DNA from: an uncultured Pelagibacteraceae bacterium
GTDB lineage: Bacteria; Pseudomonadota; Alphaproteobacteria; Pelagibacterales; Pelagibacteraceae
Reading direction: 5' to 3'
Length of the DNA: 64,000 nucleotides
Assembly (NCBI GenBank): GCA_902589315.1
Contig: CACISK010000003.1
Coordinates: forward strand, 1-64,000
Shown piece after piece: positions 14,618 to 57,828 of the stretch (within the stretch, counting starts at the first letter, position 1; every line of letters starts with the position of its first letter). The position numbers were made by a program, and so were the translations under genes. Below the pieces are notes generated by a model. It did no database searches and was not told where the DNA came from. It worked only from the letters and a program-made list of their open reading frames with translations.

Positions 14618-14812
14618 TTAAATTCTATTTCTTAATTTATTAAGTTTTTTTACTCTTTTAATATTTTCTTGGAGTATTCTTTTCTTTTTTTCAGAAGGTT
14701 TTTCATAATTATTTTTTAATTTTATAATTTTAAAAAAACCATCCCTCTGGAGTTTTCTTTTTAAAACTCTGAGCGCCTGTTCAACATTATTATCTTTAAC
14801 TTCTATTTTAAT
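14618..14812 (-). CDS. rpsU: Ribosomal protein bS21, probable AUU start
   Basis: Small-subunit protein near the 3' end of 16S rRNA, needed for efficient initiation. Seen: VKDNNVEQALRVLKRKLQRDG and a YEKPSEKKKR motif, followed by a basic tail, as in alphaproteobacterial bS21. There is no ATG or GTG near the N terminus. The frame has a TTG at 14824, but a strong Shine-Dalgarno GGAGG (14822-14818) overlaps that TTG. An ATT codon lies 5 bases after the GGAGG, exactly where homologues have Met. I therefore take ATT at 14812 as the start (64 residues); TTG 14824 is the conventional alternative. Confidence 0.85.
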   Translation of the reverse strand: MKIEVKDNNVEQALRVLKRKLQRDGFFKIIKLKNNYEKPSEKKKRILQENIKRVKKLNKLRNRI

Positions 14813-14822
14813 AACTACCTCC
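14812..14822 (-). promoter_or_regulatory. Ribosome binding site and non-standard start of rpsU
   Basis: GGAGG at 14822-14818, then 5 bases, then ATT at 14812-14810. The site matches the anti-Shine-Dalgarno well and its spacing points at the ATT codon. An AUU start is known from infC, where it allows control by initiation factor 3. Use here is inferred. Confidence 0.6.
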
Positions 14823-14874
14823 AAAAAAGCGATTAATTAGCATTTTAAATATTATTTGTCCATATTTTGAATAC

Positions 14875-15450
14875 TTAGCTTTTATTAGATAAATTTAATT
14901 TATCTTTCTCTTTTTTTTCTTTTAAAATTCGTTTCTCTGCTTTTTCTATAGCATTTAATAAATCCTTTTGTGAGAATAATCCCATGGCTACAGGATCTTT
15001 TGCGTTTAAATTATTATAATTCCAGTAACTTTTATTTCTTATTGATGTCACGGAATTTTTTGTTATTCCTACTAATTTTGCAATTTGAGAATCTTTTAGG
15101 TTACTATGATTCTTTAATAACCATAATGCAGAATCAGGCTTATCTTGTCTTTTTGAAAGTGGAACGTATTTTTTTGTTTTAGCATCGACGCTTTTTATTT
15201 CAACCTCACCATCAATTATATTCAATGGACGATTTTCATTTTCAGATGACATTTTAATTTCATCTCTTGATAATTGACCTGACATAATTGGATTATACCC
15301 AACTATCCCTTTTGCTACTTCTCCATCTGCAATACCTTGAACTTCTACCTCATGAAGTTTACAAAATTCTGCAATTTGCTTAAATGTTAGAGAGGTATTC
15401 TCTACTAACCATACTGCTGTAGCCATTGGCATTAAAGGTGCTTTAGACAT
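14875..15450 (-). CDS. trcR: TrcR-type cell-cycle transcriptional regulator (DUF1013)
   Basis: DUF1013 protein of alphaproteobacteria, described as a transcriptional regulator in the cell-cycle context. Seen: the family N terminus with PLMPMATAVWLVENT and FKQIAEFC (a helix-turn-helix-like region), GIVGYNPI near 48, then a second helix-turn-helix-like repeat DSALWLLKNHSNLKDSQIAKLVGITKN-type region around 105-135. 191 residues with a lysine-rich C terminus. Its ATG overlaps the rpmE stop by one base. Confidence 0.85.
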   Translation of the reverse strand: MSKAPLMPMATAVWLVENTSLTFKQIAEFCKLHEVEVQGIADGEVAKGIVGYNPIMSGQLSRDEIKMSSENENRPLNIIDGEVEIKSVDAKTKKYVPLSKRQDKPDSALWLLKNHSNLKDSQIAKLVGITKNSVTSIRNKSYWNYNNLNAKDPVAMGLFSQKDLLNAIEKAEKRILKEKKEKDKLNLSNKS

Positions 15451-57434: not shown

Positions 57435-57520
57435 GCGGTCATGCTGAAATTGGTAGACAGGCACGGTTGAGGGCCGTGTGGGCCTAGCCCATGAGAGTTC
57501 GAGTCTCTCTGACCGCACCA
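57435..57520 (+). tRNA. tRNA-Leu (GAG)
   Basis: An 86-base class II tRNA with a long variable arm, acceptor GCGGTCA/TGACCGC, anticodon stem CACGG/CCGTG around the loop TTGAGGG, giving anticodon GAG, and encoded CCA at the end. Convergent with the tmRNA, whose 3' end lies about 17 bases away. Confidence 0.95.
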
Positions 57521-57534
57521 AAACAAATATTTAT

Positions 57535-57794
57535 TAAGGGGCGTTCTGTTGCCAGGTGCCCCAAACCCCGTAACTTAATTAATAAATTAATTAAGCTGCA
57601 AGTGCGTAACTTTCGTTAGCATTTATAAATTAGTCCTTCACGGCGGAACAATACCGAACGAAAGAATAACTTTTAGTCATCCGTCGATCCTAATTCACCC
57701 CCATAAGTTGAAAATGGTGGAGGTGGTGGGTACTGCCCCCACGTCCGTAATGGTTATTACGAAATTCGTTTATCGTCATAGTTGGAAAACCAAC
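57535..57794 (-). ncRNA. ssrA: Permuted two-piece tmRNA (alphaproteobacterial type)
   Basis: Ribosome-rescue RNA. Read on the minus strand, the acceptor piece comes first and ends with the encoded CCA at 57715-57717; a 12-base spacer follows, then the coding piece begins at 57702 with GGGGGTG. GGGGGTG (57702-57696) pairs with CACCTCC (57725-57719) to rebuild the acceptor stem across the break. The acceptor arm has a 5-bp T stem (GTGGG/CCCAC) with loop GGCAGTA. The coding piece contains the tag at 57591-57620, and a GGGGC/GCCCC helix (57562-57538) closes its 3' end, which may also act as terminator. Ends are approximate. The remaining bases of the 318-base gap 57521-57838 hold the promoter of this RNA and the start of thyX. 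Confidence 0.9.
57591..57620 (-). other. tmRNA tag reading frame
   Basis: GCT AAC GAA AGT TAC GCA CTT GCA GCT TAA: proteolysis tag ANESYALAA and stop. It ends in the ALAA that Clp-type proteases recognise, and its first codon is the resume Ala. Read directly from sequence. Confidence 0.85.
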
Positions 57795-57800
57795 ATTAAT

Positions 57801-57828
57801 AATATAAAACCAAATTCAATAGATTCAA
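57801..57828 (-). promoter_or_regulatory. Promoter of the tmRNA gene
   Basis: Read on the minus strand: TTGAAT (57828-57823), 16 bases, TATATT (57806-57801). Start falls at about 57794, the edge of a GTTGG/CCAAC hairpin (57794-57781) that would begin the precursor. It lies just upstream of and divergent from thyX. Confidence 0.5.

Follow-up and report, generated by a model that had tools for sequence, protein, structure and literature searches.

The gene for ribosomal protein bS21 (rpsU) in the window, by which we mean the whole 64,000-nucleotide stretch of SAR11 DNA analyzed here, appears to be translated from an AUU codon. An isoleucine codon was found at the same position in all 104 Pelagibacteraceae loci read, a set that includes the best 80 of 415 relatives: ATT in 102 and ATC in two, with ATG, GTG, TTG and ATA at none. 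When a sister family of the same order was included, AUG was absent from the rpsU start in all 146 loci read. Sequence comparison could hardly give stronger support to the assignment of AUU as start codon, and its maintenance by selection is likewise well supported by the comparisons. We give a probability of roughly 55% to the reading that this weak start codon has been retained so as to make rpsU output dependent on the state of 30S subunits.

The minus-strand frame at positions 14812-14618, comprising 64 codons and a stop codon (14620-14618), was identified as bS21 by its match to the PF01165 profile (57.4 bits, E 1.2e-15, against a curated family cut-off of 27). Its ATT start codon (14812-14810, minus strand) is preceded by the Shine-Dalgarno sequence GGAGG (14822-14818) at a distance of five bases, TAGTT, and is followed by the codons AAA ATA GAA GTT AAA GAT AAT AAT GTT. 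In the locus comparison the ATT corresponds to the residue at which other alphaproteobacterial bS21 proteins start. Standard ORF calling misplaced the bS21 start at TTG (14824-14822, minus strand), which we rejected as the start. Its last base doubles as the initial G of GGAGG, so that it overlaps the Shine-Dalgarno sequence, and the relatives speak against it as well. The original prediction, which placed an AUU start at this homologous position five bases after GGAGG and discounted the overlapping TTG, holds, with stronger support than the window alone provided. The window belongs to SAR11, and its nearest named relatives (best 80 of 415) are Pelagibacteraceae with protein identities of up to 98%.

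The 104 Pelagibacteraceae loci comprise nine from a genome search, 80 from named contigs (the best 80 of 415 relatives) and 15 from five other genera. Altogether they cover at least six genera and include 103 distinct sequences, with the same genome possibly represented twice; close relatives dominate, while the 15 loci of other genera spread wider. In the rpsU genome searches, 8 of 61 genomes in one and 13 of 147 in another gave no match, and part of the matching genomes was read. The original prediction had proposed a comparison of the 5' region across SAR11 and other alphaproteobacteria; the isoleucine-codon start proved constant in the Pelagibacteraceae loci, and no relative was seen that carries the ATT without a Shine-Dalgarno sequence. 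The latter reads GGAGG in 102 loci and GGGGG in two, at 4-9 nt from the start codon, with spacers of 5 nt (95 loci), 6 nt (5), 4 nt (2) and 9 nt (2). Elsewhere in the gene the third codon positions show a mean difference of 0.36 between loci and a maximum of 0.61. The internal isoleucine codon 30, for instance, is ATT in 41 cases, ATA in 40 and ATC in four. Because internal isoleucine codons mix ATT and ATA, codon bias fails to explain the split of 102, two and zero at the start. The third base of the start codon is fixed while internal isoleucine codons vary, and therefore selection seems to act on the start codon itself rather than on the isoleucine residue.

Two other codons within the frame were considered as starts and rejected. 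The third codon (14806-14804, minus strand) is ATA in 101 of the 104 loci and varies less than isoleucine codons 30, 46 and 51; it lies 10-15 nt from the Shine-Dalgarno sequence and is replaced by GTA in L162 and by ATT in L159. An in-frame GTG among the first downstream codons is found in only six of the 104 Pelagibacteraceae loci and in 18 of the 42 sister-family loci. One further SAR11 match to rpsU (G151:C6:71013-71111) has two internal TAA codons and covers the family profile partially, which may reflect an assembly error or a broken copy.

In the sister family, 42 rpsU loci start with ATA (41) or ATC (1), located 8 nt after GGAGG (41) or 7 nt after GGGGG (1). The non-canonical start is thus conserved across both families, as ATT or ATC in 104 of 104 and as ATA or ATC in 42 of 42 loci read. 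A single transition would convert ATA to ATG, yet ATG occurs at none of the 42 sister-family starts. The codon that follows, homologous to the usual start position, was tried as an alternative. It varies between GTC (21), GTT (20) and GTA (1), whereas ATA is fixed in 41 of 42 loci, and the ATA was preferred for this reason.

Among other alphaproteobacteria we listed 110 loci, the higher-scoring part of 230 matching genomes, of which all except L203 were parsed. At the usual start position these 109 loci have GTG (56), TTG (16), ATG (12) or other codons (25); where one of the latter occupies the position, the preceding codon is ATC (10), ATA (4), TTG (4), ATG (3), CTG (2), GTG (1) or TCC (1). 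By our reading, the likely starts in the 109 listed loci are GTG in 57, TTG in 20, ATG in 16, ATC or ATA in 14, and CTG or ATC in two. Three of the 14 likely ATC/ATA loci (L194, L207 and L264) lack any ordinary start in frame, which makes the isoleucine-codon start firm in these three, and it is probable in the remainder. The nearest ordinary start is a GTG (once ATG) at or in the Shine-Dalgarno sequence in L142, L181, L183, L247, L248, L253 and L272, and lies 13 or more codons upstream in L149, L201, L252 and L256.

Several controls showed ordinary start codons. The ribosomal protein gene rpsO starts with ATG in all 28 parsed loci (30 were taken, the best-scoring among 92 genomes with a match); a script tallied 25 ATG, two unmatched and one ACC, and the latter three show an N-terminal methionine in translation. 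Outside the class, 44 rpsU loci have ATG (32), GTG (10), TTG (1) or an ambiguous start (1), and none has an isoleucine codon. In the S10/spc stretch of the same genome, the recognized ribosomal protein genes start with ATG at the expected N-terminus and adk starts with GTG. As a separate observation, loci from other classes of the phylum whose bS21 carries V-Y-(D/E)-N-N-V-D-Q-A-I (L407, L409, L410, L413, L415, L416, L418, L419, L421 and L423) have GTG at rpsU in 10 of 10 seen.

Upstream of rpsU, a proposed promoter consists of the -35 element TGGACA (14862-14857, minus strand) and an extended -10 element, TGC followed by TAATTA (14842-14834). All 104 Pelagibacteraceae loci match both T[AG]GAC[AT], exactly 17 nt above the -10 element, and TGN-TANNNN, the end of which lies 21-26 nt ahead of the start codon. 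When both strands of the window were scanned, the full pattern occurred once, at rpsU. A comparable promoter match was present in all 42 sister-family loci, where it was searched for by the -35 motif, with the -10 element ending 36-42 nt before the start. Judging from the usual distance to a -10 element, transcription would start near position 14827, and the leader of SAR11 rpsU would be about 15 nt long with little besides the Shine-Dalgarno sequence. The rpsU unit thus appears compact, consisting of a near-invariant predicted promoter, a short leader, rpsU and, usually, an initiator tRNA gene. A TrcR-family gene (PF06242, 183.2 bits) is located upstream of rpsU on the same strand (14875-15450), and 12 bases separate its stop codon from the -35 element.

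The predicted pairing of the rpsU Shine-Dalgarno sequence (-10.7 kcal/mol, compared with a median of -1.85 kcal/mol for the others) is better than that of all 80 other ORF starts compared, if a CCUCC tail of 16S rRNA is assumed, as in all pairing energies given here; patterns for this tail were not found in the nine genomes searched, the own genome and eight others. Compared were ORFs of at least 100 codons from the window plus the S10/spc stretch, which together make up about 79 kb of the genome; 77 of the 80 starts were assigned as ATG by our ATG-preferring rule. A threshold of -13 kcal/mol used for Shine-Dalgarno sequences in a Flavobacterium study derives from a different calculation. A conserved RNA fold was not detected between -17 and +80 (consensus energy -0.76, against -0.31 with a standard deviation of 0.70 for shuffled columns). 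When the segment from -18 to +60 was folded, pairing of the Shine-Dalgarno sequence was moderate (median 0.63), and the start codon did not stand out in openness from those of 24 other genes (0.54 versus a mean of 0.50). A structured RNA operator for autoregulation by mimicry was considered and dropped, given a leader of about 15 nt and no fold beyond that of shuffled alignments.

An initiator tRNA gene (14613-14537, minus strand; called by ARAGORN as tRNA-Met and assigned by us as initiator from its sequence) begins 4 nt past the rpsU stop codon in the window, and the two genes are probably co-transcribed. This gene is found downstream of rpsU in 101 of the 104 loci read, within 8 nt in 89 of them. 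The stretches of L159 and L162, both of genus g6, lack it, and L160 ends at a contig edge. One initiator tRNA match per genome was obtained in all 11 Pelagibacteraceae genomes searched, and in G065 it is located elsewhere. Since the assembly of the own genome is 81% complete, a second copy is possible there. In 101 of 101 Pelagibacteraceae loci the anticodon stem of this tRNA has A29-U41 in place of G29-C41 (positions counted by us), which amounts to a loss of the first of three G-C pairs that mark initiators. These pairs are described as highly conserved (PMC7949028), and their partial loss may relax the selection of the initiator tRNA. Elsewhere in the window, ARAGORN reports a tRNA-Leu gene (plus strand, 57435-57520) that overlaps an asterisked tmRNA (minus strand, 57500-57810) by 21 bases.

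A known gene of this kind is infC, for which an AUU start and feedback by its product, initiation factor IF3, are described (PMC5472188). We also read infC in the same lineages. Sixteen loci were read in the genus of the window (L240 and 15 others, with the own genome represented), and in all of them infC appears to begin with a GTG immediately behind an in-frame TAA. For the sister family the likely start is ATA (13) or ATC (1), six bases past GGAG, in 14 of 14 loci. A further reading covered 15 of 23 loci, eight having been removed by our filter. Three other Pelagibacteraceae genera showed ATG (L357 and L358) or GTG after TAA (L363, L365 and L372), further sister-family loci showed ATA (L359, L360 and L375), and likely ATA or ATC starts were found in other alphaproteobacteria (L355, L364, L366, L370 and L376). 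Eight genomes of the class were picked for a non-ordinary rpsU codon, and in the five that remained after the same filter had removed G307, G322 and G229, namely G191, G285, G348, G273 and G381, both rpsU and infC have likely isoleucine-codon starts. The non-canonical infC start thus seems to have been lost in the SAR11 genus while rpsU has one. With infC apparently starting at GTG, the classical self-feedback of IF3 is not seen here, nor would rpsU be a simple copy of the infC logic. The likely isoleucine-codon starts at both genes in the sister family and in several other alphaproteobacteria point the other way, in favour of that logic. In genus g7 of the same family (L367 and L371), infC likely has an ATT start after AGAGGT.

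Genes demonstrated to carry a start codon against which the initiation machinery discriminates are few in bacteria, and IF3 represses the non-canonical starts of infC and of Streptomyces sigR (GTC) (PMC5472188). Like infC with its AUU or AUC, rpsU is a translation-machinery gene with a conserved isoleucine-codon start; unlike infC, its product in SAR11 is bS21 rather than IF3, and its Shine-Dalgarno sequence is predicted to be very strong. It resembles sigR as a gene other than infC whose non-canonical start was missed by annotation. In contrast to sigR, which encodes an oxidative-stress sigma factor, it is a ribosomal protein gene, uses isoleucine codons and is a candidate for repression. The third comparison is with rpsU of Flavobacterium, the same gene and one with an outstanding Shine-Dalgarno sequence, to which the predicted strong pairing in SAR11 would correspond. 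This mRNA is translated better by ribosomes lacking bS21, by virtue of the strong Shine-Dalgarno sequence, in a system that relies on an anti-Shine-Dalgarno sequence hidden by bS21, bS18 and bS6 (PMC9976891). The 30S complexes formed on it depend on IF3 when subunits are normal but not when bS21 lacks its C-terminus, and bS21 joins the ribosome late (PMC9976891). Unlike the SAR11 gene, Flavobacterium rpsU is described there by its Shine-Dalgarno strength, with no non-canonical start.

By analogy with infC, sigR and Flavobacterium rpsU, feedback on SAR11 rpsU may operate via IF3, via ribosomes without bS21, or both, and it is plausible that bS21 obeys the logic of infC and IF3. A strong Shine-Dalgarno sequence on a very short leader would position the ribosome at the AUU. 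Subunits without bS21 would hold the mRNA through this sequence and initiate at AUU, and complete subunits under full IF3 control would reject it. In this way bS21 would be produced while 30S subunits lack it, and its production would stop once they are complete. Control would be exerted on the Shine-Dalgarno sequence and the start codon, since so short a predicted leader could scarcely accommodate an RNA operator. Comparison supports the start codon and its conservation, the lack of AUG, the Shine-Dalgarno sequence and the pattern of the promoter; it is the sensing that we infer.

A rival reading in which TTG 14824, or some other ordinary codon, initiates translation and the isoleucine is internal is hardly credible, even though the TTG was picked by standard ORF calling, is the nearest ordinary upstream start in 76 of the 104 loci, and the matching residue is internal in most bS21 copies on viral contigs. 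This reading fails because 21 of the 104 loci have no in-frame ATG, GTG or TTG between the upstream stop codon and the ATT; in L157, L158, L166 and L171 an in-frame stop begins only 6 nt before the ATT. Among the other loci, the nearest ordinary start is a GTG two codons upstream in six and an ATG eleven codons upstream in one. The sister family has no ordinary in-frame upstream start in 39 of 42 loci, and the remaining three have an ATG 12-16 codons upstream. We regard it as very improbable that the codon is a product of drift, in which a GTG decayed to ATT or ATA in AT-rich genomes and was tolerated through the strong Shine-Dalgarno sequence. GTG is indeed the likely rpsU start most often met in the sample of the class, and genomes of the SAR11 order are AT-rich. 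Under drift, however, ATG would be expected as well, and in Pelagibacteraceae ATA too; neither was found in the 104 loci. The variable internal isoleucine codons and third positions likewise speak against it, as do the likely ATC/ATA starts at loci of GC-rich appearance such as L142, L149 and L252. A counterpoint to selection is that a change from ATT to ATG is rare by itself under AT-rich mutation.

The main rival to sensing is a fixed low output. In that case the weak start would set a constant translation rate that tunes bS21 down relative to the initiator tRNA made from the same promoter. The position of rpsU between a near-invariant promoter and a tRNA gene that is single in the Pelagibacteraceae genomes searched suits this explanation, since with a common promoter the transcription of rpsU may follow the need for the tRNA; furthermore, codon conservation alone does not prove regulation. 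Yet L159 and L162, which lack the adjoining tRNA, retain ATT, and the sister family has no tRNA in the stretch in nine of nine loci scanned and still starts with ATA or ATC. Combining the Shine-Dalgarno sequence predicted to be strongest with a very weak start would also be an odd route to low output, for which a weaker Shine-Dalgarno sequence would suffice. On balance we consider a fixed rate possible but on the unlikely side. Feedback might alternatively act through bS21 and the Shine-Dalgarno sequence alone, as in Flavobacterium, with the codon secondary and IF3 without a special part. The rank of the rpsU Shine-Dalgarno sequence as strongest of 81 starts (assumed anti-Shine-Dalgarno) agrees with this, and the Flavobacterium mechanism was demonstrated experimentally (PMC9976891). 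This explanation leaves unexplained the absence of AUG in all loci read of the order and its scarcity in the class. The key to the Flavobacterium system is the hidden anti-Shine-Dalgarno sequence, which would have to be assumed for SAR11, and we rate this option as improbable.

Beyond the preferred reading of an AUU start that responds to the 30S subunit, a broader proposal can be formulated, which we hold to be doubtful. One promoter would serve both the AUU-start rpsU and the only initiator tRNA gene of the cell as an initiation operon, in which the AUU reads initiation capacity, that is, initiator tRNA, IF3 and bS21-free subunits. The completion of 30S subunits, the supply of initiator tRNA and start fidelity would then form a single loop, and alphaproteobacterial rpsU would generally belong with infC to the IF3-sensitive set.

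IF3-sensitive start codons are already known as a kind, while the scarcity of AUG at rpsU across the class and a fixed AUU or AUA start in a ribosomal protein gene look new. Among the open-licence PubMed Central papers listed (two of the listings gave 20 of 142 and 15 of 172 hits), no title or opening of an abstract mentions a non-canonical rpsU start, and none is named in the parts covered of PMC9976891, PMC8710568 and PMC10783764. SAR11 bacteria are among the most abundant in the ocean. An isoleucine-codon start of a ribosomal protein gene, kept in every SAR11 locus read, suggests that completion of the 30S subunit may be coupled to initiation fidelity, and similar rpsU starts elsewhere in the class add to this suggestion. 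The AUU start may let SAR11 limit the amount of the late-joining bS21. A homologous bS21 protein is encoded in viral contigs and pelagiphage records. Unlike the SAR11 gene, the viral-contig copies start with ATG or TTG in 57 of 57 loci (duplicates included), at the homologous position or 1-3 codons upstream, and because of these ordinary starts such copies should escape an AUU-type control.
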